Source: Meghimatium bilineatum (Eukaryota; Mollusca; Gastropoda; Stylommatophora; Philomycidae). From it: DNA of 64,000 bases. Positions 7,681 to 43,486 of the stretch are shown here, one piece after another. The stretch is from contig CM067298.1 in assembly GCA_034231615.1 (NCBI GenBank), forward strand, positions 60,108,387 through 60,172,386, written 5' to 3'. Positions within the stretch are counted from its first letter, which is position 1. Each line of letters starts with the position of its first letter. Under the pieces are notes generated by a model. The model was not told the origin of the DNA and ran no database searches. It saw nothing but the letters and a program-made list of their open reading frames with translations. The position numbers and the translations under genes are program-made.

Positions 7681-7699
7681 GGTGATATTAACTCCCAAG

Positions 7700-14650: not shown

Positions 14651-14749
14651 TGTCGTATTCAGAGCATGTGAAGAACTAGGGTCGGAGCTTGCATATGGAC
14701 CACCTCTTCCTGTTGTCATCAGAGTGAGTTCGAAGCTTGAGCTAAGATA

Positions 14750-15560
14750 TTCGATATATCTATCTATTTGATAAACCCTTTGTTGCCTTTCAGGTTCAGG
14801 GGTAGAAAAGTATTCTGGAGATGGTCCTCGTGTGTGCTGAGTATATTGGGGATTTTGTCACCTCTTATATTTCGGGGGTACATTGTTTTCATGGTCGGCC
14901 TCTAGGTTTACCATCACTGTATCTGTGTAGCATAGCTTGCTGTGGTATGATGTCTGATGGTAGTCTGCTGATGTGTGCAAACCATTTGATCGGTTGAATA
15001 TATTCCAAGATTGGGGTGGTGCCAGTTTTTTGTCTACTGTCCTCATTCTTCAATCTGTCTCTTAGTGATATTCCTAGGATTCTGCGTAAGCATGCCGTTT
15101 CAGCTGCCACAAGATTACGTATGTCTTGTGCTGTCGTTGTCCATGATTGGCTTTGTGATAGCACATCATTGGCATAGTTCGTTTTTAATAGTGTTATTTT
15201 GGTGTTTAAATCTACATTTTTGTTTCTGAAGATTGGTGTCATTTACCCTGGGGCTTTGTATGCTTTACTACATCTATTGTGTATTTCTTTGCTGCTCTTG
15301 TTATCTGCTATGATATTGCTTTCTAGGTATGTGAATTCTGTCACTTATTTAAGTCTGCTATTTCCAATATATATATTGTTTTTTTTTCTATTCTTCCTAT
15401 CTCATTATTTCTGTCTTTTCTATATTTATCTTCATGTTAAATGTTTGGCATGTTTGATGTAATATGTCTATTTGTCTTTGTAGTTGCTCTTCTGGTGAGA
15501 CTGTTCAACAACATTTTACTTTCTTATATAAGAATAAGTGTTTTTAGGTCTAGCGCTGAT
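14750..15560 (-). mobile_element. LINE family R1 tail in array unit 1 (repeated in all units)
   Basis: Minus strand: QTCQTFNMKINIEKTEIM, then FRNKNVDLNTKITLLKTN, then SQSWTTTAQD and CLRRILGISLRDR, then IQPIKWFAHISRLPSDIIPQ and GKPRGRP, followed by a (GATA)n tail. The other copies start 3543 bp apart (ORF starts on the minus strand at 18707, 22250, 25793, 29336, 32879, 36422, 39965). The same family occurs at 48013-48325 and 49455-49640. It is 5' truncated and broken. Confidence 0.8.
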
Positions 15561-15640
15561 TTCATATTTGTGAATTTACATTTTTTGAAAACCATTATAA
15601 GTTTTCTTATTCAGGCGGCATGCAGTATATGTATGAGGTA

Positions 15641-16089
15641 ATCCAAGCACATTGAACTCAATGCTCTGTACATTTTAACTATTTACATGTTGAAATGAAT
15701 GATCAGCATGGATGCATAGGAAAATAACTAACAATCTCAAATATGTAAACTTTTACACCCTTATATTTCCAATTTTCATGCTTTGTTTCTGGATTTAAGT
15801 GGTTCACTTTTAATGTATTTCAGTATATATATATCTGCATATATCTTTAGCAACCATAAATAAAACACAATAAATAAATTATACAGCTCCTCATTACATG
15901 CTTGTATGCTGAGAATTATTTTTTAAACACAACTGTCTTCTGATTATTACTTCAACTATTTACTGTTTTCCTGGCTATAATGTTAAGCTATCCAAAATAT
16001 TTTTTGTTGTTGCTTATTCTCACTTTCATCTAAAGTGACATTATTTTTCTAGCTAATATCAACTTTAAAAGTATACAATCCTTCTACAT
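15641..16089. other. Unit spacer, no recognisable feature
   Basis: AT-rich non-coding sequence, repeated in each unit at 3543-bp steps. Confidence 0.5.
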
Positions 16090-16960
16090 AAATTTTGAAA
16101 ATCAACACAGAAAAGAGAAAGATCTTGGTTAATAGAATAAATGCAGGAATGCAGACCAACATCATGATGAATACTTTCAAATACCTCTGATCTAGCATAT
16201 TCAACTATAGAAATTGCAAAGCAGAATTATATATAAGACTGGAGATGGCTTTAGCTTTTATGTCATTCATTCATTTTCCTTTTGCACTGAAGTTAGTGCA
16301 TAGAGAAGATATCAGATGTCTCCAATTCTGTCTGTTCAAAGCTATTTTGTGCAGTTCTTGAATGGTATGGATATTGATTGCTTTACTTTCTCTAAGTATT
16401 GTTCTTCTGAGTTTTTCTTTTGGTCTACCCCTGGCTCTTTTGCCTGTAGGTATCCATTCAAAAGATTGGTGGTGTATTCTGTTGGTGTCTGCACATAGGA
16501 CATGCCCGATGTAGGACCAACAGCGTTTTCTTATAACATCTATGATTAAATTTTGATGTGTCTCTTCTCTGATTTTATCATTCAATTTGAATTCACTCCA
16601 ATGGGTGTTAGTTATCCTACGAAGACATTTGTTCTCGAAACTCAGTAATTTCTTTTCTGAAGATAAAGAGCTTTTCCAGCTCTCACATCCATATGATAGC
16701 ACCAGAAATTATATTTTATGTCAAAGTTAAACATAATTTGGAAAAGTAACATCAGTGTTATAAAGGCTTTCGAAATGCAGTGCTATAGAAGAGTCCTGAG
16801 AGTACCATGGACAGCAAAAAAGACCAACCAAGACATGCTAAGAAAAATTAACGTTCAAGAAGGCTGTTTTTTAAACACCATATTGAGAAGGAAGTTAGTA
16901 CTTAGAATACAAATGCTTCAGTATCAGTATATAGTGATATCAGTATCAAAATGGTGGTAA
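16090..16960 (+). mobile_element. LINE family R3 tail, split by a nested LINE (unit 1; repeated in all units)
   Basis: The plus strand reads RKERKILVNRINAGMQTNIM and FNYRNCKAELYIRLEMALAF up to 16262. It resumes at 16718 with LNIIWKSNISVIKAFEMQCY, RRVLRVPWTAKKTNQDMLRK and RRKLVLRIQMLQY. The gap is the nested insertion 16266-16713. Copies of the right part start at 20261, 23804, 27347, 30890, 34433, 37976 and 41519. Confidence 0.8.
16266..16713 (-). mobile_element. Nested LINE family R2 tail, unit 1
   Basis: Encodes [53 protein letters not shown] and [20 protein letters not shown]. The 3' tail is (GAAT)n. It is flanked by the 10-bp direct repeat TTTTATGTCA (16256-16265 and 16714-16723), a target-site duplication. 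It is 5' truncated; the frame of 143 codons is open. Residue near the C-terminus: His (RHLISS). Confidence 0.88.
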
Positions 16961-17025
16961 ATTATTACTATACTATCATTTACGTTTCTCAGTTATGAAG
17001 TTTACATTTCCATGTACGTTTTAAT

Positions 17026-17157
17026 ATGTTCATTCTCAAACTCCTGCTGAACCTCTCTTATAACTGGAAAATGGTCACCAGATTATCAGTAAGATGTAGT
17101 CTATAGAACTATTTTGTTGTCAGTTTTTATTTGAGCAAGTGGCCAGACTTCTGCTGT
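17026..17157 (-). mobile_element. SINE-like family B fragment in unit 1 (repeated in all units)
   Basis: The minus strand has CAGAAGTCTGGCCACTTGCT, CAAATAAAAACTGACAAC and CAGCAGGAGTTTGAGAATGA, aligned with the full copy at 3439-3600 but more diverged. Repeated every 3543 bp, just downstream of each CPQ exon and its poly(A) signal. Confidence 0.7.
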
Positions 17158-17265
17158 AACATATTGAAATTGATATTTGCAGAAATCTCTTTATTTGTTA
17201 AATTTTCAGCATGAAACAGTGTACATTCAAGACTTGCAGTTGCAAATTATAAATATAATAGACAT

Positions 17266-17850
17266 CTATACAACTGTTCTGTTAGCAGGTAGCATGAATT
17301 GCATGTCAGCCAAAGCGTAGGCTGTGACTGTCCAAACTGCAGTACAAAGGTCCATTATATCAGGATTTTGGACAGTCATAGTATCCCCATTACTATGATG
17401 GAAGTAAAAATATGTGGAAGTATCAATCTTTATACTGCCACCTGGGACACCAATTGTTGGCCATTGATCCACATCTGACAGACTAGCTCCATTATCCACT
17501 GTTGTTGCATTAAGCCTACTCAAAAGTGTTATTGCTAAATATTGCATAATTTTCATAGCTTCATTAGAACCTGTGAACTGTAAGCCTTCTGGCTTAAAAG
17601 TCCCCATATCCGATTCCATTACAATATCCATATTAATGGATTCATTCTTATGTTTGTTGAAGTAATCAATGCCACCCCACAAACCAAGCTCTTCACATGT
17701 CCATAATACAACACGCAGAGTTCTTTTTGGTCTCAAACCAAGCTGTCGTATAATAGATAATGCCTCCCATGAAATAAAAGCTCCTCCTCCATCATCCATA
17801 GCTCCTTGACCAACATCCCAACTGTCCAAGTGACCACTGACTAGAACAAC
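17266..17850 (-). CDS. CPQ: Extra copy of CPQ terminal exon (array unit 1, distal)
   Basis: Intact acceptor, frame, stop and poly(A) signal (17190-17195). It carries one synonymous change near its start (Leu codon CTA instead of CTG, from + strand ACTAG versus ACCAG). Protein identical to the others. It sits about 25 kb beyond the proximal terminal exon. Confidence 0.8.
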   Translation of the reverse strand, partial: VVLVSGHLDSWDVGQGAMDDGGGAFISWEALSIIRQLGLRPKRTLRVVLWTCEELGLWGGIDYFNKHKNESINMDIVMESDMGTFKPEGLQFTGSNEAMKIMQYLAITLLSRLNATTVDNGASLSDVDQWPTIGVPGGSIKIDTSTYFYFHHSNGDTMTVQNPDIMDLCTAVWTVTAYALADMQFMLPANRTVV

Positions 17851-18193
17851 CTTTGAACAATAAAATAGCACAATTATAGAAGTGATATTCATCATCTAGA
17901 AAATGTATGAAAATACTGACAGAACTATGGCCGTTAAAATAGTTTCAGAACTGTTTGACTTGTCAGACAAATGTGATATCATAGAATCATCCAGTTAGTG
18001 ACTCTATATATTAGTGACTTTCCTTAGTAAGCTAACATTTTCATGTTTTTTGTTACTTAGTTATCTTCCAGTTAAATTTTTACTTATACACAGATTGTAT
18101 TGTATCATGCATTTCTCAGGATGTATTTTTATGAGCAAATAATTTTGGGACCCAGAAAGGGAGCAAAGAATATTAGCACTGTCATCTATTATA
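17851..18193. other. Unit intron remnant and junction with family A head (unit 1; in all units)
   Basis: The sequence upstream of the exon acceptor includes a polypyrimidine-containing stretch. The last ~50 bp hold GGGAGCAAAGAATATTAGCA followed by CTGTCATCTATTATA, the head of dispersed repeat family A. The unit junction falls inside this head. Confidence 0.6.
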
Positions 18194-19808
18194 TGTCTTA
18201 TTCAGAGCATGTGAAGAACTAGGGTCGGAGCTTGCATATGGACCACCTCTTCCTGTTGTCATCAGAGTGAGTTCGAAGCTTGAGCTAAGATATTCGATAT
18301 ATCTATCTATTTGATAAACCCTTTGTTGCCTTTTAGGCTCAGGGGTAGAAAAGTATTCTGGAGATGGTCCTCGTGTGTGCTGAGTATATTGGGGATTTTG
18401 TCGCCTCTTATATTTCGGGGGTACATTGTTTTCATGGTCGGCCTCTAGGTTTACCATCACTGTATCTGTATAGCATAGCTTGCTGTGGTATGATGTCTGA
18501 TGGTAGTCTGCTGATGTGTGCAAACCATTTGATCGGTTGAATATATTCCAAGATTGGGGTGGTGCCAGTTTTTTGTCTACTGTCCTCATTCTTCAATCTG
18601 TCTCTTAGTGATATTCCTAGGATTCTGCGTAAGCATGCCGTTTCAGCTGCCTCAAGATTACGTTTGTCTTGTGCTGTCGTTGTCCATGATTGGCTTTGTG
18701 ATAGCACATCATTGGCATAGTTATCGTTTTTAATAGTGTTATTTTGGTGTTTAAATCTACATTTTTGTTTCTGAAGATTAGTGTCATTTACCCTGGGGTT
18801 TTGTATGCTTTACTACATCTATTGTGTATTTCTTTGCTGCTCTTGTCATCTGCTATGATATTGCTTTCTAGGTATGTGAATTCTGTCACTATTTAAGTCT
18901 GCTATTTCCAATATATATATTGTTTTTTTTCTATTCTTCCTATCTCATTATTTCTGTCTTTTCTATATTTATCTTCATGTTAAATGTTTGGCATGTTTGA
19001 TGTAATATGTCTATTTGTCTTTGTAGTTGCTCTTCTGGTGAGACTGTTCAACAACATTTTACTTTCTTATATAAGAATAAGTGTTTTTAGGTCTAGCGCT
19101 GATTTCATATTTGTGAATTTACATTTTTTGAAAACCATTATAAGTTTTCTTATTCAGGCGGCATGCAGTATATGTATGAGGTAATCCAAGCACATTGAAC
19201 TCAATGCTCTGTACATTTTAACTATTTACATGTTGAAATGAATGATCAGCATGGATGCATAGGAAAATAACTAACAATCTCAAATATGTAAACTTTTACA
19301 CCCTTATATTTCCAATTTTCATGCTTTGTTTCTGGATTTAAGTGGTTCACTTTTAATGTATTTCAGTATATATATATCTGCATATATCTTTAGCAACCAT
19401 AAATAAAACACAATAAATAAATTATACAGCTCCTCATTACATGCTTGTATGCTGAGAATTATTTTTTAAACACAACTGTCTTCTGATTATTACTTCAACT
19501 ATTTACTGTTTTCCTGGCTATAATGTTAAGCTATCCAAAATATTTTTTGTTGTTGCTTATTCTCACTTTCATCTAAAGTGACATTATTTTTCTAGCTAAT
19601 ATCAACTTTAAAAGTATACAATCCTTCTACATAAATTTTGAAAATCAACACAGAAAAGAGAAAGATCTTGGTTAATAGAATAAATGCAGGAATGCAGACC
19701 AACATCATGATGAATACTTTCAAATACCTCTGATCTAGCATATTCAACTATAGAAATTGCAAAGCAGAATTATATATAAGACTGGAGATGGCTTTAGCTT
19801 TTATGTCA

Positions 19809-20256
19809 TTCATTCATTTTCCTTTTGCACTGAAGTTAGTGCATAGAGAAGATATCAGATCTCTCCAATTCTGTCTGTTCAAAGCTATTTTGTGCAGTTC
19901 TTGAATGGTATGGATATTGATTGCTTTACTTTCTCTAAGTATTGTTCTTCTGAGTTTTTCTTTTGGTCTACCCCTGGCTCTTTTGCCTGTAGGTATCCAT
20001 TCAAAAGATTGGTGGTGTATTCTGTTGGTGTCTGCACATAGGACATGCCCGATGTAGGACCAACAGCGTTTTCTTATAACATCTATGATTAAATTTTGAT
20101 GTGTCTCTTCTCTGATTTTATCATTCAATTTGAATTCACTCCAATGGGTGTTAGTTATCCTACGAAGACATTTGTTCTCGAAACTCAGTAATTTCTTTTC
20201 TGAAGATAAAGAGCTTTTCCAGCTCTCACATCCATATGATAGCACCAGAAATTATA
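19809..20256 (-). mobile_element. Nested LINE family R2 tail, unit 2
   Basis: Same insertion as in unit 1. Carries the Asp variant (RDLISS). Confidence 0.88.
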
Positions 20257-20808
20257 TTTTATGTCAAAGTTAAACATAATTTGGAAAAGTAACATCAGTG
20301 TTATAAAGGCTTTCGAAATGCAGTGCTATAGAAGAGTCCTGAGAGTACCATGGACAGCAAAAAAGACCAACCAAGACATGCTAAGAAAAATTAACGTTCA
20401 AGAAGGCTGTTTTTTAAACACCATATTGAGAAGGAAGTTAGTACTTAGAATACAAATGCTTCAGTATCAGTATATAGTGATATCAGTATCAAAATGGTGG
20501 TAAATTATTACTATACTATCATTTACGTTTCTCAGTTATGAAGTTTACATTTCCATGTACGTTTTAATATGTTCATTCTCAAACTCCTGCTGAACCTCTC
20601 TTATAACTGGAAAATGGTCACCAGATTATCAGTAAGATGTAGTCTATAGAACTATTTTGTTGTCAGTTTTTATTTGAGCAAGTGGCCAGACTTCTGCTGT
20701 AACATATTGAAATTGATATTTGCAGAAATCTCTTTATTTGTTAAATTTTCAGCATGAAACAGTGTACATTCAAGACTTGCAGTTGCAAATTATAAATATA
20801 ATAGACAT

Positions 20809-21393
20809 CTATACAACTGTTCTGTTAGCAGGTAGCATGAATTGCATGTCAGCCAAAGCGTAGGCTGTGACTGTCCAAACTGCAGTACAAAGGTCCATTA
20901 TATCAGGATTTTGGACAGTCATAGTATCCCCATTACTATGATGGAAGTAAAAATATGTGGAAGTATCAATCTTTATACTGCCACCTGGGACACCAATTGT
21001 TGGCCATTGATCCACATCTGACAGACTAGCTCCATTATCCACTGTTGTTGCATTAAGCCTACTCAAAAGTGTTATTGCTAAATATTGCATAATTTTCATA
21101 GCTTCATTAGAACCTGTGAACTGTAAGCCTTCTGGCTTAAAAGTCCCCATATCCGATTCCATTACAATATCCATATTAATGGATTCATTCTTATGTTTGT
21201 TGAAGTAATCAATGCCACCCCACAAACCAAGCTCTTCACATGTCCATAATACAACACGCAGAGTTCTTTTTGGTCTCAAACCAAGCTGTCGTATAATAGA
21301 TAATGCCTCCCATGAAATAAAAGCTCCTCCTCCATCATCCATAGCTCCTTGACCAACATCCCAACTGTCCAAGTGACCACTGACCAGAACAAC
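20809..21393 (-). CDS. CPQ: Extra copy of CPQ terminal exon (array unit 2)
   Basis: Intact acceptor, frame, stop and poly(A) signal (20733-20738). Protein identical to the proximal copy. Confidence 0.8.
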   Translation of the reverse strand, partial: VVLVSGHLDSWDVGQGAMDDGGGAFISWEALSIIRQLGLRPKRTLRVVLWTCEELGLWGGIDYFNKHKNESINMDIVMESDMGTFKPEGLQFTGSNEAMKIMQYLAITLLSRLNATTVDNGASLSDVDQWPTIGVPGGSIKIDTSTYFYFHHSNGDTMTVQNPDIMDLCTAVWTVTAYALADMQFMLPANRTVV

Positions 21394-23351
21394 CTTTGAA
21401 CAATAAAATAGCACAATTATAGAAGTGATATTCATCATCTAGAAAATGTATGAAAATACTGACAGAACTATGGCCGTTAAAAAAGTTTCAGAACTGTTTG
21501 ACTTGTCAGACAAATGTGATATCATAGAATCATCCAGTTAGTGACTCTATATATTAGTGACTTTCCTTAGTAAGCTAACATTTTCATGTTTTTTGTTACT
21601 TAGTTATCTTCCAGTTAAATTTTTACTTATACACAGATTGTATTGTATCATGCATTTCTCAGGATGTATTTTTATGAGCAAATAATTTTGGGACCCAGAA
21701 AGGGAGCAAAGAATATTAGCACTGTCATCTATTATATGTCTTATTCAGAGCATGTGAAGAACTAGGGTCGGAGCTTGCATATGGACCACCTCTTCCTGTT
21801 GTCATCAGAGTGAGTTCGAAGCTTGAGCTAAGATATTCGATATATCTATCTATTTGATAAACCCTTTGTTGCCTTTTAGGCTCAGGGGTAGAAAAGTATT
21901 CTGGAGATGGTCCTCGTGTGTGCTGAGTATATTGGGGATTTTGTCGCCTCTTATATTTCGGGGGTACATTGTTTTCATGGTCGGCCTCTAGGTTTACCAT
22001 CACTGTATCTGTATAGCATAGCTTGCTGTGGTATGATGTCTGATGGTAGTCTGCTGATGTGTGCAAACCATTTGATCGGTTGAATATATTCCAAGATTGG
22101 GGTGGTGCCAGTTTTTTGTCTACTGTCCTCATTCTTCAATCTGTCTCTTAGTGATATTCCTAGGATTCTGCGTAAGCATGCCGTTTCAGCTGCCTCAAGA
22201 TTACGTTTGTCTTGTGCTGTCGTTGTCCATGATTGGCTTTGTGATAGCACATCATTGGCATAGTTATCGTTTTTAATAGTGTTATTTTGGTGTTTAAATC
22301 TACATTTTTGTTTCTGAAGATTAGTGTCATTTACCCTGGGGCTTTGTATGCTTTACTACATCTATTGTGTATTTCTTTGCTGCTCTTGTCATCTGCTATG
22401 ATATTGCTTTCTAGGTATGTGAATTCTGTCACTATTTAAGTCTGCTATTTCCAATATATATATTGTTTTTTTTCTATTCTTCCTATCTCATTATTTCTGT
22501 CTTTTCTATATTTATCTTCATGTTAAATGTTTGGCATGTTTGATGTAATATGTCTATTTGTCTTTGTAGTTGCTCTTCTGGTGAGACTGTTCAACAACAT
22601 TTTACTTTCTTATATAAGAATAAGTGTTTTTAGGTCTAGCGCTGATTTCATATTTGTGAATTTACATTTTTTGAAAACCATTATAAGTTTTCTTATTCAG
22701 GCGGCATGCAGTATATGTATGAGGTAATCCAAGCACATTGAACTCAATGCTCTGTACATTTTAACTATTTACATGTTGAAATGAATGATCAGCATGGATG
22801 CATAGGAAAATAACTAACAATCTCAAATATGTAAACTTTTACACCCTTATATTTCCAATTTTCATGCTTTGTTTCTGGATTTAAGTGGTTCACTTTTAAT
22901 GTATTTCAGTATATATATATCTGCATATATCTTTAGCAACCATAAATAAAACACAATAAATAAATTATACAGCTCCTCATTACATGCTTGTATGCTGAGA
23001 ATTATTTTTTAAACACAACTGTCTTCTGATTATTACTTCAACTATTTACTGTTTTCCTGGCTATAATGTTAAGCTATCCAAAATATTTTTTGTTGTTGCT
23101 TATTCTCACTTTCATCTAAAGTGACATTATTTTTCTAGCTAATATCAACTTTAAAAGTATACAATCCTTCTACATAAATTTTGAAAATCAACACAGAAAA
23201 GAGAAAGATCTTGGTTAATAGAATAAATGCAGGAATGCAGACCAACATCATGATGAATACTTTCAAATACCTCTGATCTAGCATATTCAACTATAGAAAT
23301 TGCAAAGCAGAATTATATATAAGACTGGAGATGGCTTTAGCTTTTATGTCA

Positions 23352-23799
23352 TTCATTCATTTTCCTTTTGCACTGAAGTTAGTGCATAGAGAAGATATCA
23401 GATGTCTCCAATTCTGTCTGTTCAAAGCTATTTTGTGCAGTTCTTGAATGGTATGGATATTGATTGCTTTACTTTCTCTAAGTATTGTTCTTCTGAGTTT
23501 TTCTTTTGGTCTACCCCTGGCTCTTTTGCCTGTAGGTATCCATTCAAAAGATTGGTGGTGTATTCTGTTGGTGTCTGCACATAGGACATGCCCGATGTAG
23601 GACCAACAGCGTTTTCTTATAACATCTATGATTAAATTTTGATGTGTCTCTTCTCTGATTTTATCATTCAATTTGAATTCACTCCAATGGGTGTTAGTTA
23701 TCCTACGAAGACATTTGTTCTCGAAACTCAGTAATTTCTTTTCTGAAGATAAAGAGCTTTTCCAGCTCTCACATCCATATGATAGCACCAGAAATTATA
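23352..23799 (-). mobile_element. Nested LINE family R2 tail, unit 3
   Basis: Same insertion as in unit 1. His variant. Confidence 0.88.
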
Positions 23800-24351
23800 T
23801 TTTATGTCAAAGTTAAACATAATTTGGAAAAGTAACATCAGTGTTATAAAGGCTTTCGAAATGCAGTGCTATAGAAGAGTCCTGAGAGTACCATGGACAG
23901 CAAAAAAGACCAACCAAGACATGCTAAGAAAAATTAACGTTCAAGAAGGCTGTTTTTTAAACACCATATTGAGAAGGAAGTTAGTACTTAGAATACAAAT
24001 GCTTCAGTATCAGTATATAGTGATATCAGTATCAAAATGGTGGTAAATTATTACTATACTATCATTTACGTTTCTCAGTTATGAAGTTTACATTTCCATG
24101 TACGTTTTAATATGTTCATTCTCAAACTCCTGCTGAACCTCTCTTATAACTGGAAAATGGTCACCAGATTATCAGTAAGATGTAGTCTATAGAACTATTT
24201 TGTTGTCAGTTTTTATTTGAGCAAGTGGCCAGACTTCTGCTGTAACATATTGAAATTGATATTTGCAGAAATCTCTTTATTTGTTAAATTTTCAGCATGA
24301 AACAGTGTACATTCAAGACTTGCAGTTGCAAATTATAAATATAATAGACAT

Positions 24352-24936
24352 CTATACAACTGTTCTGTTAGCAGGTAGCATGAATTGCATGTCAGCCAAA
24401 GCGTAGGCTGTGACTGTCCAAACTGCAGTACAAAGGTCCATTATATCAGGATTTTGGACAGTCATAGTATCCCCATTACTATGATGGAAGTAAAAATATG
24501 TGGAAGTATCAATCTTTATACTGCCACCTGGGACACCAATTGTTGGCCATTGATCCACATCTGACAGACTAGCTCCATTATCCACTGTTGTTGCATTAAG
24601 CCTACTCAAAAGTGTTATTGCTAAATATTGCATAATTTTCATAGCTTCATTAGAACCTGTGAACTGTAAGCCTTCTGGCTTAAAAGTCCCCATATCCGAT
24701 TCCATTACAATATCCATATTAATGGATTCATTCTTATGTTTGTTGAAGTAATCAATGCCACCCCACAAACCAAGCTCTTCACATGTCCATAATACAACAC
24801 GCAGAGTTCTTTTTGGTCTCAAACCAAGCTGTCGTATAATAGATAATGCCTCCCATGAAATAAAAGCTCCTCCTCCATCATCCATAGCTCCTTGACCAAC
24901 ATCCCAACTGTCCAAGTGACCACTGACCAGAACAAC
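24352..24936 (-). CDS. CPQ: Extra copy of CPQ terminal exon (array unit 3)
   Basis: Intact acceptor, frame, stop and poly(A) signal (24276-24281). Protein identical to the proximal copy. Confidence 0.8.
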   Translation of the reverse strand, partial: VVLVSGHLDSWDVGQGAMDDGGGAFISWEALSIIRQLGLRPKRTLRVVLWTCEELGLWGGIDYFNKHKNESINMDIVMESDMGTFKPEGLQFTGSNEAMKIMQYLAITLLSRLNATTVDNGASLSDVDQWPTIGVPGGSIKIDTSTYFYFHHSNGDTMTVQNPDIMDLCTAVWTVTAYALADMQFMLPANRTVV

Positions 24937-27894: not shown

Positions 27895-28479
27895 CTATAC
27901 AACTGTTCTGTTAGCAGGTAGCATGAATTGCATGTCAGCCAAAGCGTAGGCTGTGACTGTCCAAACTGCAGTACAAAGGTCCATTATATCAGGATTTTGG
28001 ACAGTCATAGTATCCCCATTACTATGATGGAAGTAAAAATATGTGGAAGTATCAATCTTTATACTGCCACCTGGGACACCAATTGTTGGCCATTGATCCA
28101 CATCTGACAGACTAGCTCCATTATCCACTGTTGTTGCATTAAGCCTACTCAAAAGTGTTATTGCTAAATATTGCATAATTTTCATAGCTTCATTAGAACC
28201 TGTGAACTGTAAGCCTTCTGGCTTAAAAGTCCCCATATCCGATTCCATTACAATATCCATATTAATGGATTCATTCTTATGTTTGTTGAAGTAATCAATG
28301 CCACCCCACAAACCAAGCTCTTCACATGTCCATAATACAACACGCAGAGTTCTTTTTGGTCTCAAACCAAGCTGTCGTATAATAGATAATGCCTCCCATG
28401 AAATAAAAGCTCCTCCTCCATCATCCATAGCTCCTTGACCAACATCCCAACTGTCCAAGTGACCACTGACCAGAACAAC
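27895..28479 (-). CDS. CPQ: Extra copy of CPQ terminal exon (array unit 4)
   Basis: Intact acceptor, frame, stop and poly(A) signal (27819-27824). Protein identical to the proximal copy. Confidence 0.8.
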   Translation of the reverse strand, partial: VVLVSGHLDSWDVGQGAMDDGGGAFISWEALSIIRQLGLRPKRTLRVVLWTCEELGLWGGIDYFNKHKNESINMDIVMESDMGTFKPEGLQFTGSNEAMKIMQYLAITLLSRLNATTVDNGASLSDVDQWPTIGVPGGSIKIDTSTYFYFHHSNGDTMTVQNPDIMDLCTAVWTVTAYALADMQFMLPANRTVV

Positions 28480-30885: not shown

Positions 30886-31437
30886 TTTTATGTCAAAGTT
30901 AAACATAATTTGGAAAAGTAACATCAGTGTTATAAAGGCTTTCGAAATGCAGTGCTATAGAAGAGTCCTGAGAGTACCATGGACAGCAAAAAAGACCAAC
31001 CAAGACATGCTAAGAAAAATTAACGTTCAAGAAGGCTGTTTTTTAAACACCATATTGAGAAGGAAGTTAGTACTTAGAATACAAATGCTTCAGTATCAGT
31101 ATATAGTGATATCAGTATCAAAATGGTGGTAAATTATTACTATACTATCATTTACGTTTCTCAGTTATGAAGTTTACATTTCCATGTACGTTTTAATATG
31201 TTCATTCTCAAACTCCTGCTGAACCTCTCTTATAACTGGAAAATGGTCACCAGATTATCAGTAAGATGTAGTCTATAGAACTATTTTGTTGTCAGTTTTT
31301 ATTTGAGCAAGTGGCCAGACTTCTGCTGTAACATATTGAAATTGATATTTGCAGAAATCTCTTTATTTGTTAAATTTTCAGCATGAAACAGTGTACATTC
31401 AAGACTTGCAGTTGCAAATTATAAATATAATAGACAT

Positions 31438-32022
31438 CTATACAACTGTTCTGTTAGCAGGTAGCATGAATTGCATGTCAGCCAAAGCGTAGGCTGTGAC
31501 TGTCCAAACTGCAGTACAAAGGTCCATTATATCAGGATTTTGGACAGTCATAGTATCCCCATTACTATGATGGAAGTAAAAATATGTGGAAGTATCAATC
31601 TTTATACTGCCACCTGGGACACCAATTGTTGGCCATTGATCCACATCTGACAGACTAGCTCCATTATCCACTGTTGTTGCATTAAGCCTACTCAAAAGTG
31701 TTATTGCTAAATATTGCATAATTTTCATAGCTTCATTAGAACCTGTGAACTGTAAGCCTTCTGGCTTAAAAGTCCCCATATCCGATTCCATTACAATATC
31801 CATATTAATGGATTCATTCTTATGTTTGTTGAAGTAATCAATGCCACCCCACAAACCAAGCTCTTCACATGTCCATAATACAACACGCAGAGTTCTTTTT
31901 GGTCTCAAACCAAGCTGTCGTATAATAGATAATGCCTCCCATGAAATAAAAGCTCCTCCTCCATCATCCATAGCTCCTTGACCAACATCCCAACTGTCCA
32001 AGTGACCACTGACCAGAACAAC
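31438..32022 (-). CDS. CPQ: Extra copy of CPQ terminal exon (array unit 5)
   Basis: Intact acceptor, frame, stop and poly(A) signal (31362-31367). Protein identical to the proximal copy. Confidence 0.8.
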   Translation of the reverse strand, partial: VVLVSGHLDSWDVGQGAMDDGGGAFISWEALSIIRQLGLRPKRTLRVVLWTCEELGLWGGIDYFNKHKNESINMDIVMESDMGTFKPEGLQFTGSNEAMKIMQYLAITLLSRLNATTVDNGASLSDVDQWPTIGVPGGSIKIDTSTYFYFHHSNGDTMTVQNPDIMDLCTAVWTVTAYALADMQFMLPANRTVV

Positions 32023-33980
32023 CTTTGAACAATAAAATAGCACAATTATAGAAGTGATATTCATCATCTAGAAAATGTATGAAAATACTGACAGAACTAT
32101 GGCCGTTAAAAAAGTTTCAGAACTGTTTGACTTGTCAGACAAATGTGATATCATAGAATCATCCAGTTAGTGACTCTATATATTAGTGACTTTCCTTAGT
32201 AAGCTAACATTTTCATGTTTTTTGTTACTTAGTTATCTTCCAGTTAAATTTTTACTTATACACAGATTGTATTGTATCATGCATTTCTCAGGATGTATTT
32301 TTATGAGCAAATAATTTTGGGACCCAGAAAGGGAGCAAAGAATATTAGCACTGTCATCTATTATATGTCTTATTCAGAGCATGTGAAGAACTAGGGTCGG
32401 AGCTTGCATATGGACCACCTCTTCCTGTTGTCATCAGAGTGAGTTCGAAGCTTGAGCTAAGATATTCGATATATCTATCTATTTGATAAACCCTTTGTTG
32501 CCTTTTAGGCTCAGGGGTAGAAAAGTATTCTGGAGATGGTCCTCGTGTGTGCTGAGTATATTGGGGATTTTGTCGCCTCTTATATTTCGGGGGTACATTG
32601 TTTTCATGGTCGGCCTCTAGGTTTACCATCACTGTATCTGTATAGCATAGCTTGCTGTGGTATGATGTCTGATGGTAGTCTGCTGATGTGTGCAAACCAT
32701 TTGATCGGTTGAATATATTCCAAGATTGGGGTGGTGCCAGTTTTTTGTCTACTGTCCTCATTCTTCAATCTGTCTCTTAGTGATATTCCTAGGATTCTGC
32801 GTAAGCATGCCGTTTCAGCTGCCTCAAGATTACGTTTGTCTTGTGCTGTCGTTGTCCATGATTGGCTTTGTGATAGCACATCATTGGCATAGTTATCGTT
32901 TTTAATAGTGTTATTTTGGTGTTTAAATCTACATTTTTGTTTCTGAAGATTAGTGTCATTTACCCTGGGGCTTTGTATGCTTTACTACATCTATTGTGTA
33001 TTTCTTTGCTGCTCTTGTCATCTGCTATGATATTGCTTTCTAGGTATGTGAATTCTGTCACTATTTAAGTCTGCTATTTCCAATATATATATTGTTTTTT
33101 TTCTATTCTTCCTATCTCATTATTTCTGTCTTTTCTATATTTATCTTCATGTTAAATGTTTGGCATGTTTGATGTAATATGTCTATTTGTCTTTGTAGTT
33201 GCTCTTCTGGTGAGACTGTTCAACAACATTTTACTTTCTTATATAAGAATAAGTGTTTTTAGGTCTAGCGCTGATTTCATATTTGTGAATTTACATTTTT
33301 TGAAAACCATTATAAGTTTTCTTATTCAGGCGGCATGCAGTATATGTATGAGGTAATCCAAGCACATTGAACTCAATGCTCTGTACATTTTAACTATTTA
33401 CATGTTGAAATGAATGATCAGCATGGATGCATAGGAAAATAACTAACAATCTCAAATATGTAAACTTTTACACCCTTATATTTCCAATTTTCATGCTTTG
33501 TTTCTGGATTTAAGTGGTTCACTTTTAATGTATTTCAGTATATATATATCTGCATATATCTTTAGCAACCATAAATAAAACACAATAAATAAATTATACA
33601 GCTCCTCATTACATGCTTGTATGCTGAGAATTATTTTTTAAACACAACTGTCTTCTGATTATTACTTCAACTATTTACTGTTTTCCTGGCTATAATGTTA
33701 AGCTATCCAAAATATTTTTTGTTGTTGCTTATTCTCACTTTCATCTAAAGTGACATTATTTTTCTAGCTAATATCAACTTTAAAAGTATACAATCCTTCT
33801 ACATAAATTTTGAAAATCAACACAGAAAAGAGAAAGATCTTGGTTAATAGAATAAATGCAGGAATGCAGACCAACATCATGATGAATACTTTCAAATACC
33901 TCTGATCTAGCATATTCAACTATAGAAATTGCAAAGCAGAATTATATATAAGACTGGAGATGGCTTTAGCTTTTATGTCA

Positions 33981-34428
33981 TTCATTCATTTTCCTTTTGC
34001 ACTGAAGTTAGTGCATAGAGAAGATATCAGATCTCTCCAATTCTGTCTGTTCAAAGCTATTTTGTGCAGTTCTTGAATGGTATGGATATTGATTGCTTTA
34101 CTTTCTCTAAGTATTGTTCTTCTGAGTTTTTCTTTTGGTCTACCCCTGGCTCTTTTGCCTGTAGGTATCCATTCAAAAGATTGGTGGTGTATTCTGTTGG
34201 TGTCTGCACATAGGACATGCCCGATGTAGGACCAACAGCGTTTTCTTATAACATCTATGATTAAATTTTGATGTGTCTCTTCTCTGATTTTATCATTCAA
34301 TTTGAATTCACTCCAATGGGTGTTAGTTATCCTACGAAGACATTTGTTCTCGAAACTCAGTAATTTCTTTTCTGAAGATAAAGAGCTTTTCCAGCTCTCA
34401 CATCCATATGATAGCACCAGAAATTATA
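33981..34428 (-). mobile_element. Nested LINE family R2 tail, unit 6
   Basis: Same insertion as in unit 1. Asp variant. Confidence 0.88.
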
Positions 34429-34980
34429 TTTTATGTCAAAGTTAAACATAATTTGGAAAAGTAACATCAGTGTTATAAAGGCTTTCGAAATGCAGTGCTA
34501 TAGAAGAGTCCTGAGAGTACCATGGACAGCAAAAAAGACCAACCAAGACATGCTAAGAAAAATTAACGTTCAAGAAGGCTGTTTTTTAAACACCATATTG
34601 AGAAGGAAGTTAGTACTTAGAATACAAATGCTTCAGTATCAGTATATAGTGATATCAGTATCAAAATGGTGGTAAATTATTACTATACTATCATTTACGT
34701 TTCTCAGTTATGAAGTTTACATTTCCATGTACGTTTTAATATGTTCATTCTCAAACTCCTGCTGAACCTCTCTTATAACTGGAAAATGGTCACCAGATTA
34801 TCAGTAAGATGTAGTCTATAGAACTATTTTGTTGTCAGTTTTTATTTGAGCAAGTGGCCAGACTTCTGCTGTAACATATTGAAATTGATATTTGCAGAAA
34901 TCTCTTTATTTGTTAAATTTTCAGCATGAAACAGTGTACATTCAAGACTTGCAGTTGCAAATTATAAATATAATAGACAT

Positions 34981-35565
34981 CTATACAACTGTTCTGTTAG
35001 CAGGTAGCATGAATTGCATGTCAGCCAAAGCGTAGGCTGTGACTGTCCAAACTGCAGTACAAAGGTCCATTATATCAGGATTTTGGACAGTCATAGTATC
35101 CCCATTACTATGATGGAAGTAAAAATATGTGGAAGTATCAATCTTTATACTGCCACCTGGGACACCAATTGTTGGCCATTGATCCACATCTGACAGACTA
35201 GCTCCATTATCCACTGTTGTTGCATTAAGCCTACTCAAAAGTGTTATTGCTAAATATTGCATAATTTTCATAGCTTCATTAGAACCTGTGAACTGTAAGC
35301 CTTCTGGCTTAAAAGTCCCCATATCCGATTCCATTACAATATCCATATTAATGGATTCATTCTTATGTTTGTTGAAGTAATCAATGCCACCCCACAAACC
35401 AAGCTCTTCACATGTCCATAATACAACACGCAGAGTTCTTTTTGGTCTCAAACCAAGCTGTCGTATAATAGATAATGCCTCCCATGAAATAAAAGCTCCT
35501 CCTCCATCATCCATAGCTCCTTGACCAACATCCCAACTGTCCAAGTGACCACTGACCAGAACAAC
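34981..35565 (-). CDS. CPQ: Extra copy of CPQ terminal exon (array unit 6)
   Basis: Intact acceptor, frame, stop and poly(A) signal (34905-34910). Protein identical to the proximal copy. Confidence 0.8.
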   Translation of the reverse strand, partial: VVLVSGHLDSWDVGQGAMDDGGGAFISWEALSIIRQLGLRPKRTLRVVLWTCEELGLWGGIDYFNKHKNESINMDIVMESDMGTFKPEGLQFTGSNEAMKIMQYLAITLLSRLNATTVDNGASLSDVDQWPTIGVPGGSIKIDTSTYFYFHHSNGDTMTVQNPDIMDLCTAVWTVTAYALADMQFMLPANRTVV

Positions 35566-37523
35566 CTTTGAACAATAAAATAGCACAATTATAGAAGTGA
35601 TATTCATCATCTAGAAAATGTATGAAAATACTGACAGAACTATGGCCGTTAAAAAAGTTTCAGAACTGTTTGACTTGTCAGACAAATGTGATATCATAGA
35701 ATCATCCAGTTAGTGACTCTATATATTAGTGACTTTCCTTAGTAAGCTAACATTTTCATGTTTTTTGTTACTTAGTTATCTTCCAGTTAAATTTTTACTT
35801 ATACACAGATTGTATTGTATCATGCATTTCTCAGGATGTATTTTTATGAGCAAATAATTTTGGGACCCAGAAAGGGAGCAAAGAATATTAGCACTGTCAT
35901 CTATTATATGTCTTATTCAGAGCATGTGAAGAACTAGGGTCGGAGCTTGCATATGGACCACCTCTTCCTGTTGTCATCAGAGTGAGTTCGAAGCTTGAGC
36001 TAAGATATTCGATATATCTATCTATTTGATAAACCCTTTGTTGCCTTTTAGGCTCAGGGGTAGAAAAGTATTCTGGAGATGGTCCTCGTGTGTGCTGAGT
36101 ATATTGGGGATTTTGTCGCCTCTTATATTTCGGGGGTACATTGTTTTCATGGTCGGCCTCTAGGTTTACCATCACTGTATCTGTATAGCATAGCTTGCTG
36201 TGGTATGATGTCTGATGGTAGTCTGCTGATGTGTGCAAACCATTTGATCGGTTGAATATATTCCAAGATTGGGGTGGTGCCAGTTTTTTGTCTACTGTCC
36301 TCATTCTTCAATCTGTCTCTTAGTGATATTCCTAGGATTCTGCGTAAGCATGCCGTTTCAGCTGCCTCAAGATTACGTTTGTCTTGTGCTGTCGTTGTCC
36401 ATGATTGGCTTTGTGATAGCACATCATTGGCATAGTTATCGTTTTTAATAGTGTTATTTTGGTGTTTAAATCTACATTTTTGTTTCTGAAGATTAGTGTC
36501 ATTTACCCTGGGGCTTTGTATGCTTTACTACATCTATTGTGTATTTCTTTGCTGCTCTTGTCATCTGCTATGATATTGCTTTCTAGGTATGTGAATTCTG
36601 TCACTATTTAAGTCTGCTATTTCCAATATATATATTGTTTTTTTTCTATTCTTCCTATCTCATTATTTCTGTCTTTTCTATATTTATCTTCATGTTAAAT
36701 GTTTGGCATGTTTGATGTAATATGTCTATTTGTCTTTGTAGTTGCTCTTCTGGTGAGACTGTTCAACAACATTTTACTTTCTTATATAAGAATAAGTGTT
36801 TTTAGGTCTAGCGCTGATTTCATATTTGTGAATTTACATTTTTTGAAAACCATTATAAGTTTTCTTATTCAGGCGGCATGCAGTATATGTATGAGGTAAT
36901 CCAAGCACATTGAACTCAATGCTCTGTACATTTTAACTATTTACATGTTGAAATGAATGATCAGCATGGATGCATAGGAAAATAACTAACAATCTCAAAT
37001 ATGTAAACTTTTACACCCTTATATTTCCAATTTTCATGCTTTGTTTCTGGATTTAAGTGGTTCACTTTTAATGTATTTCAGTATATATATATCTGCATAT
37101 ATCTTTAGCAACCATAAATAAAACACAATAAATAAATTATACAGCTCCTCATTACATGCTTGTATGCTGAGAATTATTTTTTAAACACAACTGTCTTCTG
37201 ATTATTACTTCAACTATTTACTGTTTTCCTGGCTATAATGTTAAGCTATCCAAAATATTTTTTGTTGTTGCTTATTCTCACTTTCATCTAAAGTGACATT
37301 ATTTTTCTAGCTAATATCAACTTTAAAAGTATACAATCCTTCTACATAAATTTTGAAAATCAACACAGAAAAGAGAAAGATCTTGGTTAATAGAATAAAT
37401 GCAGGAATGCAGACCAACATCATGATGAATACTTTCAAATACCTCTGATCTAGCATATTCAACTATAGAAATTGCAAAGCAGAATTATATATAAGACTGG
37501 AGATGGCTTTAGCTTTTATGTCA

Positions 37524-37971
37524 TTCATTCATTTTCCTTTTGCACTGAAGTTAGTGCATAGAGAAGATATCAGATGTCTCCAATTCTGTCTGTTCAAAGC
37601 TATTTTGTGCAGTTCTTGAATGGTATGGATATTGATTGCTTTACTTTCTCTAAGTATTGTTCTTCTGAGTTTTTCTTTTGGTCTACCCCTGGCTCTTTTG
37701 CCTGTAGGTATCCATTCAAAAGATTGGTGGTGTATTCTGTTGGTGTCTGCACATAGGACATGCCCGATGTAGGACCAACAGCGTTTTCTTATAACATCTA
37801 TGATTAAATTTTGATGTGTCTCTTCTCTGATTTTATCATTCAATTTGAATTCACTCCAATGGGTGTTAGTTATCCTACGAAGACATTTGTTCTCGAAACT
37901 CAGTAATTTCTTTTCTGAAGATAAAGAGCTTTTCCAGCTCTCACATCCATATGATAGCACCAGAAATTATA
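37524..37971 (-). mobile_element. Nested LINE family R2 tail, unit 7
   Basis: Same insertion as in unit 1. His variant. Confidence 0.88.
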
Positions 37972-38523
37972 TTTTATGTCAAAGTTAAACATAATTTGGA
38001 AAAGTAACATCAGTGTTATAAAGGCTTTCGAAATGCAGTGCTATAGAAGAGTCCTGAGAGTACCATGGACAGCAAAAAAGACCAACCAAGACATGCTAAG
38101 AAAAATTAACGTTCAAGAAGGCTGTTTTTTAAACACCATATTGAGAAGGAAGTTAGTACTTAGAATACAAATGCTTCAGTATCAGTATATAGTGATATCA
38201 GTATCAAAATGGTGGTAAATTATTACTATACTATCATTTACGTTTCTCAGTTATGAAGTTTACATTTCCATGTACGTTTTAATATGTTCATTCTCAAACT
38301 CCTGCTGAACCTCTCTTATAACTGGAAAATGGTCACCAGATTATCAGTAAGATGTAGTCTATAGAACTATTTTGTTGTCAGTTTTTATTTGAGCAAGTGG
38401 CCAGACTTCTGCTGTAACATATTGAAATTGATATTTGCAGAAATCTCTTTATTTGTTAAATTTTCAGCATGAAACAGTGTACATTCAAGACTTGCAGTTG
38501 CAAATTATAAATATAATAGACAT

Positions 38524-39108
38524 CTATACAACTGTTCTGTTAGCAGGTAGCATGAATTGCATGTCAGCCAAAGCGTAGGCTGTGACTGTCCAAACTGCAG
38601 TACAAAGGTCCATTATATCAGGATTTTGGACAGTCATAGTATCCCCATTACTATGATGGAAGTAAAAATATGTGGAAGTATCAATCTTTATACTGCCACC
38701 TGGGACACCAATTGTTGGCCATTGATCCACATCTGACAGACTAGCTCCATTATCCACTGTTGTTGCATTAAGCCTACTCAAAAGTGTTATTGCTAAATAT
38801 TGCATAATTTTCATAGCTTCATTAGAACCTGTGAACTGTAAGCCTTCTGGCTTAAAAGTCCCCATATCCGATTCCATTACAATATCCATATTAATGGATT
38901 CATTCTTATGTTTGTTGAAGTAATCAATGCCACCCCACAAACCAAGCTCTTCACATGTCCATAATACAACACGCAGAGTTCTTTTTGGTCTCAAACCAAG
39001 CTGTCGTATAATAGATAATGCCTCCCATGAAATAAAAGCTCCTCCTCCATCATCCATAGCTCCTTGACCAACATCCCAACTGTCCAAGTGACCACTGACC
39101 AGAACAAC
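38524..39108 (-). CDS. CPQ: Extra copy of CPQ terminal exon (array unit 7)
   Basis: Intact acceptor, 195-codon reading frame including stop, and AATAAA signal at 38448-38453, all at the same offsets as the proximal copy. The protein is identical. It has no exons 1-5 of its own, so it would need read-through and exon choice, or independent transcription, to be used. Confidence 0.8.
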   Translation of the reverse strand, partial: VVLVSGHLDSWDVGQGAMDDGGGAFISWEALSIIRQLGLRPKRTLRVVLWTCEELGLWGGIDYFNKHKNESINMDIVMESDMGTFKPEGLQFTGSNEAMKIMQYLAITLLSRLNATTVDNGASLSDVDQWPTIGVPGGSIKIDTSTYFYFHHSNGDTMTVQNPDIMDLCTAVWTVTAYALADMQFMLPANRTVV

Positions 39109-41066
39109 CTTTGAACAATAAAATAGCACAATTATAGAAGTGATATTCATCATCTAGAAAATGTATGAAAATACTGACAGAACTATGGCCGTTAAAAAAG
39201 TTTCAGAACTGTTTGACTTGTCAGACAAATGTGATATCATAGAATCATCCAGTTAGTGACTCTATATATTAGTGACTTTCCTTAGTAAGCTAACATTTTC
39301 ATGTTTTTTGTTACTTAGTTATCTTCCAGTTAAATTTTTACTTATACACAGATTGTATTGTATCATGCATTTCTCAGGATGTATTTTTATGAGCAAATAA
39401 TTTTGGGACCCAGAAAGGGAGCAAAGAATATTAGCACTGTCATCTATTATATGTCTTATTCAGAGCATGTGAAGAACTAGGGTCGGAGCTTGCATATGGA
39501 CCACCTCTTCCTGTTGTCATCAGAGTGAGTTCGAAGCTTGAGCTAAGATATTCGATATATCTATCTATTTGATAAACCCTTTGTTGCCTTTTAGGCTCAG
39601 GGGTAGAAAAGTATTCTGGAGATGGTCCTCGTGTGTGCTGAGTATATTGGGGATTTTGTCGCCTCTTATATTTCGGGGGTACATTGTTTTCATGGTCGGC
39701 CTCTAGGTTTACCATCACTGTATCTGTATAGCATAGCTTGCTGTGGTATGATGTCTGATGGTAGTCTGCTGATGTGTGCAAACCATTTGATCGGTTGAAT
39801 ATATTCCAAGATTGGGGTGGTGCCAGTTTTTTGTCTACTGTCCTCATTCTTCAATCTGTCTCTTAGTGATATTCCTAGGATTCTGCGTAAGCATGCCGTT
39901 TCAGCTGCCTCAAGATTACGTTTGTCTTGTGCTGTCGTTGTCCATGATTGGCTTTGTGATAGCACATCATTGGCATAGTTATCGTTTTTAATAGTGTTAT
40001 TTTGGTGTTTAAATCTACATTTTTGTTTCTGAAGATTAGTGTCATTTACCCTGGGGCTTTGTATGCTTTACTACATCTATTGTGTATTTCTTTGCTGCTC
40101 TTGTCATCTGCTATGATATTGCTTTCTAGGTATGTGAATTCTGTCACTATTTAAGTCTGCTATTTCCAATATATATATTGTTTTTTTTCTATTCTTCCTA
40201 TCTCATTATTTCTGTCTTTTCTATATTTATCTTCATGTTAAATGTTTGGCATGTTTGATGTAATATGTCTATTTGTCTTTGTAGTTGCTCTTCTGGTGAG
40301 ACTGTTCAACAACATTTTACTTTCTTATATAAGAATAAGTGTTTTTAGGTCTAGCGCTGATTTCATATTTGTGAATTTACATTTTTTGAAAACCATTATA
40401 AGTTTTCTTATTCAGGCGGCATGCAGTATATGTATGAGGTAATCCAAGCACATTGAACTCAATGCTCTGTACATTTTAACTATTTACATGTTGAAATGAA
40501 TGATCAGCATGGATGCATAGGAAAATAACTAACAATCTCAAATATGTAAACTTTTACACCCTTATATTTCCAATTTTCATGCTTTGTTTCTGGATTTAAG
40601 TGGTTCACTTTTAATGTATTTCAGTATATATATATCTGCATATATCTTTAGCAACCATAAATAAAACACAATAAATAAATTATACAGCTCCTCATTACAT
40701 GCTTGTATGCTGAGAATTATTTTTTAAACACAACTGTCTTCTGATTATTACTTCAACTATTTACTGTTTTCCTGGCTATAATGTTAAGCTATCCAAAATA
40801 TTTTTTGTTGTTGCTTATTCTCACTTTCATCTAAAGTGACATTATTTTTCTAGCTAATATCAACTTTAAAAGTATACAATCCTTCTACATAAATTTTGAA
40901 AATCAACACAGAAAAGAGAAAGATCTTGGTTAATAGAATAAATGCAGGAATGCAGACCAACATCATGATGAATACTTTCAAATACCTCTGATCTAGCATA
41001 TTCAACTATAGAAATTGCAAAGCAGAATTATATATAAGACTGGAGATGGCTTTAGCTTTTATGTCA

Positions 41067-41514
41067 TTCATTCATTTTCCTTTTGCACTGAAGTTAGTGC
41101 ATAGAGAAGATATCAGATCTCTCCAATTCTGTCTGTTCAAAGCTATTTTGTGCAGTTCTTGAATGGTATGGATATTGATTGCTTTACTTTCTCTAAGTAT
41201 TGTTCTTCTGAGTTTTTCTTTTGGTCTACCCCTGGCTCTTTTGCCTGTAGGTATCCATTCAAAAGATTGGTGGTGTATTCTGTTGGTGTCTGCACATAGG
41301 ACATGCCCAATGTAGGACCAACAGCGTTTTCTTATAACATCTATGATTAAATTTTGATGTGTCTCTTCTCTGATTTTATCATTCAATTTGAATTCACTCC
41401 AATGGGTGTTAGTTATCCTACGAAGACATTTGTTCTCGAAACTCAGTAATTTCTTTTCTGAAGATAAAGAGCTTTTCCAGCTCTCACATCCATATGATAG
41501 CACCAGAAATTATA
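41067..41514 (-). mobile_element. Nested LINE family R2 tail, unit 8
   Basis: Same insertion as in unit 1. Asp variant, plus a private G-to-A change near 41310. Confidence 0.88.
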
Positions 41515-41990
41515 TTTTATGTCAAAGTTAAACATAATTTGGAAAAGTAACATCAGTGTTATAAAGGCTTTCGAAATGCAGTGCTATAGAAGAGTCCTGA
41601 GAGTACCATGGACAGCAAAAAAGACCAACCAAGACATGCTAAGAAAAATTAACGTTCAAGAAGGCTGTTTTTTAAACACCATATTGAGAAGGAAGTTAGT
41701 ACTTAGAATACAAATGCTTCAGTATCAGTATATAGTGATATCAGTATCAAAATGGTGGTAAATTATTACTATACTATCATTTACGTTTCTCAGTTATGAA
41801 GTTTACATTTCCATGTACGTTTTAATATGTTCATTCTCAAACTCCTGCTGAACCTCTCTTATAACTGGAAAATGGTCACCAGATTATCAGTAAGATGTAG
41901 TCTATAGAACTATTTTGTTGTCAGTTTTTATTTGAGCAAGTGGCCAGACTTCTGCTGTAACATATTGAAATTGATATTTGCAGAAATCTC

Positions 41991-41996
41991 TTTATT
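41991..41996 (-). promoter_or_regulatory. Polyadenylation signal AATAAA of proximal CPQ terminal exon
   Basis: AATAAA lies 71 nt after the stop codon on the minus strand, in ACAAATAAAGAGATTTC. The same site follows every exon copy at 3543-bp steps (17190, 20733, 24276, 27819, 31362, 34905, 38448). Normal use would end the transcript before the other copies. Confidence 0.75.
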
Positions 41997-42066
41997 TGTT
42001 AAATTTTCAGCATGAAACAGTGTACATTCAAGACTTGCAGTTGCAAATTATAAATATAATAGACAT

Positions 42067-42651
42067 CTATACAACTGTTCTGTTAGCAGGTAGCATGAAT
42101 TGCATGTCAGCCAAAGCGTAGGCTGTGACTGTCCAAACTGCAGTACAAAGGTCCATTATATCAGGATTTTGGACAGTCATAGTATCCCCATTACTATGAT
42201 GGAAGTAAAAATATGTGGAAGTATCAATCTTTATACTGCCACCTGGGACACCAATTGTTGGCCATTGATCCACATCTGACAGACTAGCTCCATTATCCAC
42301 TGTTGTTGCATTAAGCCTACTCAAAAGTGTTATTGCTAAATATTGCATAATTTTCATAGCTTCATTAGAACCTGTGAACTGTAAGCCTTCTGGCTTAAAA
42401 GTCCCCATATCCGATTCCATTACAATATCCATATTAATGGATTCATTCTTATGTTTGTTGAAGTAATCAATGCCACCCCACAAACCAAGCTCTTCACATG
42501 TCCATAATACAACACGCAGAGTTCTTTTTGGTCTCAAACCAAGCTGTCGTATAATAGATAATGCCTCCCATGAAATAAAAGCTCCTCCTCCATCATCCAT
42601 AGCTCCTTGACCAACATCCCAACTGTCCAAGTGACCACTGACCAGAACAAC
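42067..42651 (-). CDS. CPQ: CPQ terminal exon, proximal copy (array unit 8)
   Basis: This copy lies nearest to exons 1-5 and is the expected last exon of the normal transcript. The acceptor is TTGTTCAAAG|GTTGTTCTG. It encodes 194 residues holding the complete catalytic centre: H288, D290, D300, E334, E335, D362 and H432/433 in full-protein numbering. It ends MLPANRTVV. An AATAAA signal lies 71 nt after the stop (41991-41996, reverse strand). Its protein sequence is identical to that of the seven copies downstream. Confidence 0.92.
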   Translation of the reverse strand, partial: VVLVSGHLDSWDVGQGAMDDGGGAFISWEALSIIRQLGLRPKRTLRVVLWTCEELGLWGGIDYFNKHKNESINMDIVMESDMGTFKPEGLQFTGSNEAMKIMQYLAITLLSRLNATTVDNGASLSDVDQWPTIGVPGGSIKIDTSTYFYFHHSNGDTMTVQNPDIMDLCTAVWTVTAYALADMQFMLPANRTVV

Positions 42652-43486
42652 CTTTGAACAATAAAATAGCACAATTATAGAAGTGATATTCATCATCTAG
42701 AAAATGTATGAAAATACTGACAGAACTATGGCCATTAAAAAAGTTTCAGAACTGTTTGACTTGTCAGACAAATGTGATATCATAGAATCATCCAGTTAGT
42801 GACTCTATATATTAGTGACTTTCCTTAGTAAGCTAACATTTTCATGTTTTTTGTTACTTAGTTATCTTCCAGTTAAATTTTTACTTATACACAGATTGTA
42901 TTGTATCATGCATTTCTCAGGATGTATTTTTATGAGCAAATAATTTTGGGACCCAGAAAGGGAGCAAAGAATATTAGCACAGTCATCTATTATAAGTTGG
43001 AAACACTCTGACAGAACAAAATGATATTATGCTAATGTGGAGAGAGTATTGCAAAGAAATTAACACAGAGCCATCCCAAAATAATTTAGAGCACCAACCA
43101 AACATAAAAAGAAGCACACAGGAACCCCAGGAACAAAAGAACCATTAAGGACAGAAATTGACAGCCTGAATGGGGAAAAGCAGAAGGATGCAACAAAATA
43201 ACAGCTGAAATTATTTATCAGTTAGGCTCCAAGATCTGGACAGAAACTTGGCCAGGTGATCGGAAAAGATGTGTGTGTGTGTGCATGTGTGTATATGTAT
43301 GTATATATATATGTATGTGTATATGTATATATGTGTGTGTATGCATGTGTGTGTATGTATGTGCATGTGTATGTATATATATGTGTGTATATGTATGTAT
43401 GTACACACACACACACACATATATACATATACACATACATACACATATACATACATACATACATACATACATACATACATACATAC

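Follow-up and report, generated by a model that had tools for sequence, protein, structure and literature searches.

Why should one gene end in eight copies of the same exon? This question is raised by a locus of Meghimatium bilineatum, at which the terminal coding exon (exon 6) of a predicted CPQ-like peptidase gene is repeated in tandem behind one set of exons 1-5. The window analyzed here is the whole stretch of 64,000 nucleotides (C1:60108387-60172386), which belongs to an assembly of 1.61 Gb in 32 contigs. A sliding comparison at a lag of 3543 bp delimited the array to positions 14651-42994 of the window, and the constant copy spacing (3543 bp) and the alignment of the copies gave eight head-to-tail copies of a 3543-bp unit on the minus strand (8 x 3543 = 28344 bp). 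Each unit is composed of a portion of intron 5, the terminal exon 6 and the 3′ flank. Given the minus-strand orientation of the gene, exon 5 is closest to unit 8 (39452-42994) and most distant from unit 1 (14651-18193). Eight copies of 3.5 kb at 99-100% identity cannot be due to chance, and the array is real as a feature of the assembly. When the whole assembly was searched with the 209-amino acid (aa) exon 6 frame, at least 8 candidates and at least 8 matches were obtained (whole-assembly match counts are lower bounds), all inside the array. When the flanks were read against the unit ends, no homology beyond about a base was found at the array ends. Recombination between transposon copies at these ends was considered as the source of the duplication and was rejected because no end homology was seen.

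The five upstream exons were all placed on the minus strand of the window. Coding exon 1 (60948-61171) runs from the ATG onward, encodes the hydrophobic N-terminus and was identified by its translation and the donor GTACTA. It is followed by exon 2 (57042-57267), exon 3 (51545-51630), exon 4 (49707-49848) and exon 5 (47045-47209), which is the last single-copy exon; single copy here means within the window. GT directly follows each of coding exons 1-5, AG directly precedes exons 2-5, and the joins are in frame. Because the ATG is located 6 bases behind an acceptor-like TTTACAG, a non-coding 5′ exon is probably present upstream of coding exon 1. The frame continues from exon 5 into exon 6 whichever unit is chosen, and all eight spliced readings give one 475-aa protein. 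A preliminary description of this DNA had reported the gene, its exons, the unit length of 3543 bp and the eight copies in the assembly, and the copy spacing and the in-frame splicing bear these out. Its start of the array (14651) was also correct, but its end (42993) was one base short.

The 475-aa protein contains the M28 peptidase domain (PF04389, E 6.6e-29) at residues 268-454 and thus belongs to peptidase family M28. Its best solved relative is 3iib (Peptidase M28), with an E value of 5.7e-69 over residues 62-466. A PA domain gave no match at E 0.001 in the profile search of this protein. We predict that the protein is a CPQ-like M28 peptidase. The name CPQ is our assumption, made from a likeness to human CPQ that includes the length and one 20-residue stretch; the term "carboxypeptidase Q" was absent from all of the literature matches listed for it. 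Exon 6 encodes residues 282-475, and the motifs GHLDSW, AMDDGG, TCEELG, MESDMG and FHHSNGD (residues 287-437) are all in this exon. By analogy with the M28 family, we take them to contain the zinc ligands and the catalytic Glu.

In the order from unit 8 to unit 1, the coding part of exon 6 is located at 42067-42651, 38524-39108, 34981-35565, 31438-32022, 27895-28479, 24352-24936, 20809-21393 and 17266-17850, always on the minus strand. The intron from exon 5 is 4393 bp long to unit 8, increases by 3543 bp with each further unit and reaches 29194 bp to unit 1. The last 25 intron bases before exon 6 are identical in all eight copies. In every copy of the exon (585 nt including the stop codon), the frame is open up to a stop, and within the 300 nt past this stop there are three A[AT]TAAA motifs. 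The intact acceptor, frame, stop and poly(A) signal and the single protein, which the preliminary description had claimed, are therefore confirmed in 8 of 8 copies. At least two homologous terminal exons (eight here) are thus placed behind common exons 1-5, which makes the locus a tandem terminal-exon duplication. The divergence of the protein among copies, a trait of known terminal-exon duplicates, is absent, since all eight copies give one protein.

The differences between the units carry information on the history of the array. A gapped alignment of the units gave 21 variable columns, corresponding to 20 events. Thirteen events are private to unit 1 (10 substitutions and 3 indels), three to unit 8 and one to unit 4, and the remaining three are common to two or three units. 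Any two of units 2-8 are separated by 0-6 substitutions; units 5 and 7 show no difference over the whole unit, and seven distinct sequences are present among the eight units. The private events of unit 1 are concentrated in its outer edge (14651-15381): 12 of the 13 (9 substitutions and 3 indels) are in the outer 731 of 3545 columns, where substitutions amount to about 1.2 percent. The binomial probability of this clustering is 6e-8, a value that overstates the case because the events of one tract are not independent. Beyond these 731 columns, unit 1 is almost identical to the other units. An inversion or unrelated insert in unit 1 was also considered, as 200 bp looked unrelated in a gap-free comparison, and was rejected because the gapped alignment gave three small indels instead.

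Because nearly all private events of unit 1 are in the outer edge and the rest of the unit is near-identical to the others, the edge may be older than the interior of the array or may be derived from another haplotype, and the interior seems to have been homogenized. At sites 606 and 1668, all four allele combinations are present (units 1, 3, 5 and 7; unit 2; unit 4; units 6 and 8). These combinations could reflect exchange between units, recurrent mutation or assembly mosaicism. As a whole, the variant pattern fits an array homogenized by unequal exchange or conversion. A homogenized multi-kb tandem unit (3543 bp x 8) with so few differences among units 2-8 has the character of a macro-VNTR (VNTR, variable number tandem repeat). 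The preliminary description had offered three options, and the unit variants support recent expansion together with homogenization by exchange. Alternative 3′ ends, which were also among these options, would here all encode the same protein.

Is the identity of the protein maintained by selection? Outside the divergent edge, there are 7 variable sites in 2812 bp, of which 585 bp are coding. For the coding part, the expectation is 1.46 variable sites; the only one present (P(<=1) = 0.55) is CTA in place of CTG at exon 6 codon 3 of unit 1 (position 17842 of the window). This change is synonymous, and about 22 percent of the possible coding changes are synonymous. The variants are silent on selection, and the protein identity is no evidence for it: this identity results from the youth or the homogenization of the copies. 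Purifying selection as the cause of the identity was rejected as unsupported because the variants are too few. With these numbers, the protein conservation, which had been presented as remarkable, loses that character.

We considered whether the array might be an assembly error. In this case, the true locus would have one, a few or some other number of units, and copies would have been laid out, or two haplotypes mixed, during assembly. The identity of units 5 and 7 and the very small differences among six of the units would agree with such an error, and switching between haplotypes could yield mosaic variants. However, seven of the eight unit sequences are distinct, and the private edge of unit 1 is hard to produce by copying. 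A locus with a single unit would not yield units with different private variants. Moreover, no exact repeat shared by different units is longer than 7275 bp, a length that can be crossed by accurate long reads. We therefore regard an assembly error as unlikely, although a wrong copy number in the assembly is possible and the exact count of interior units is less certain.

We judge it likely that the array is a recent macro-VNTR that carries an exon and is probably near neutral, with the 3′ end normally provided by the unit closest to exon 5 and the other seven units redundant. A single initial duplication, with ends that show no visible homology, would have come first. The copy number would then have been raised, and the units kept alike, by unequal exchange or conversion among the units. 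In the splicing of the pre-mRNA, exon 5 would be joined at the first acceptor met, that of unit 8, and cleavage at the poly(A) signals of unit 8 would give a normal CPQ, leaving the other seven units seldom transcribed. Since an acceptor and poly(A) motifs are present in every unit, the first unit should be enough, and the seven further units would be tolerated because they change nothing.

The surroundings suggest that this genome readily expands tandem repeats. Two adjacent minisatellites are located 2.4 kb past the 3′ end of the array, at 9270-10913 (24 bp x 68.6) and 10979-12262 (34 bp x 37.8). For the genome background, contigs C1-C6 were sampled in 19 evenly spaced 10-kb stretches, one of which is half N; the sample is small and non-random. 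Clear short-unit arrays were found in at least 6 of the 19 stretches (L010, L016, L023, L025, L026 and L027). Together with the neighboring minisatellites, these arrays point to a genome prone to tandem growth. Several points weigh against the macro-VNTR explanation. No tandem unit longer than 500 bp was found in the 19 stretches or the two window flanks, as judged by eye from the listing, and on this small sample kb-scale arrays are not commonplace in this genome. The eight intact exons also fit selection, and the comparison of expected and observed coding sites has little power because there are only seven variable sites. The private changes of unit 8 (1858, 3283 and 3530, in the outer half) show no significant clustering at the outer edge, and they are too few to weigh. 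Finally, both the neutrality and the use of unit 8 are what we infer from the sequence.

Would the array have a function? The units might serve as alternative 3′ ends, or the number of terminal exons might set the amount of pre-mRNA that is productively finished. All eight terminal exons are complete, and in Nav1.4 and AOX, splice variants with the duplicated terminal exons are expressed. However, isoform diversity is nil, since all copies encode one protein and have near-identical 3′ flanks, and there is no sign of coding constraint above chance. Furthermore, the copies in the precedents have diverged, those of AOX exon 10 being 63.5-65.9% similar (PMC5589949). We therefore consider a functional array quite improbable; a functional role is unsupported. 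Its rheostat form is still less probable to us. In this form, identical complete terminal exons would be a fail-safe for 3′ end formation: a missed acceptor or poly(A) site would be rescued by the next unit, and the unit number, shifted by unequal exchange, would tune the output of CPQ with the protein unchanged. It is very improbable that the units are separate small genes. In all eight units, the frame is open upstream through the acceptor to an ATG-ATG, and its product would have 209 aa, beginning with a hydrophobic segment that is followed by the catalytic part. However, this segment comes from translation of the pyrimidine-rich acceptor region, which by nature reads as hydrophobic residues, and the protein would be without the first 281 residues of CPQ. 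A bacterial-type promoter scan of unit 8 gave 14 sites versus 17.0 in shuffles, and such a scan is uninformative for an animal gene. The near-neutral macro-VNTR is thus the explanation that we prefer.

Other features of the window and its neighborhood were recorded. The unit contains fragments of dispersed repeats, which are also present at 57817-57992 and 58620-59021. The CpG observed/expected ratio is 0.27 in the unit (unit 5) and 0.40 in the window outside the array. Inverted retroelement tails of 649 bp (44141-44789 and 56257-56905, 93% complementary) are present in the introns that flank CPQ exons 3-5, and this pair could base-pair in the pre-mRNA. Inverted intronic repeat pairs can favor circular RNA or adenosine-to-inosine editing. 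Upstream of CPQ, 62120-64000 and L029:1-1926 contain minus-strand open frames of 626 and 642 aa, which continue across the window end and, by eye, resemble a non-LTR (long terminal repeat) retroelement with reverse transcriptase and RNase H. RNase H domains (PF00075) were found at 7113-7727 (E 6.3e-21) and 3859-4347 (E 2.8e-10) and belong to retroelement remnants. Units of 20 residues of the type NTDIYKAIMLNVLPQTTDVH recur in an open frame of 306 aa at L028:8346-9266, which is probably the translation of a 60-bp minisatellite. Searching the window for Rfam families and tRNA genes gave no matches.

How does this array compare with known systems? In a Drosophila study of copy-number variation, 76 percent of the duplications were partial (PMC3449122). 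Tandem duplication of a terminal exon is already known, and the variant here is the high copy number and the near-identity. The preliminary description had called the arrangement unusual; this holds for eight near-identical copies but not for the duplication as such, which is published for Nav1.4, AOX and pip. Among the literature matches listed, there was no report of a high-copy, near-identical terminal-exon array, which is no proof of absence. The known terminal-exon duplicates are old, few and diverged, and a near-identical eightfold array would catch the process at its start. It would also be an example of a gene that tolerates a surplus of 3′ ends because the first of them is used. If the unit number is polymorphic, the locus would be a natural test of whether redundant 3′ ends affect output. 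For annotators and users of RNA-seq data, reads from exon 6 map to eight places.

In the salamander Nav1.4 gene (SCN4A), the 3′ end with terminal exon 26 is duplicated (26a and 26b), both copies are transcribed, and conversion between the copies is reported (PMC8476164). CPQ resembles it in that the 3′ end of the gene alone is tandemly duplicated, including the whole coding part of the terminal exon. However, Nav1.4 has two diverged copies about 180 kb apart, both expressed, whereas CPQ has eight near-identical copies at 3.5-kb spacing. Oyster AOX has two diverged copies of terminal exon 10, which are alternatively spliced in a stress-dependent manner, in contrast to the eight copies with identical protein here. 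Drosophila pip has eight tandem homologous terminal-exon clusters, which are used in a mutually exclusive manner, and competing RNA pairing has been proposed (PMC9013439). CPQ shares the eight tandem terminal-exon repeats with pip, although the pip clusters are diverged and the CPQ copies are near-identical. The KIV-2 coding VNTR of human LPA has a 5.6-kb unit with 1-40 units per allele (PMC11462820) and "amazingly little" variation between units (PMC4378929). Like the CPQ array, it is an intragenic, exon-bearing, multi-kb repeat with little variation between units. However, the LPA units carry internal exons and lengthen the protein, whereas the CPQ unit carries a terminal exon with its stop and poly(A) signal and leaves the protein unchanged.

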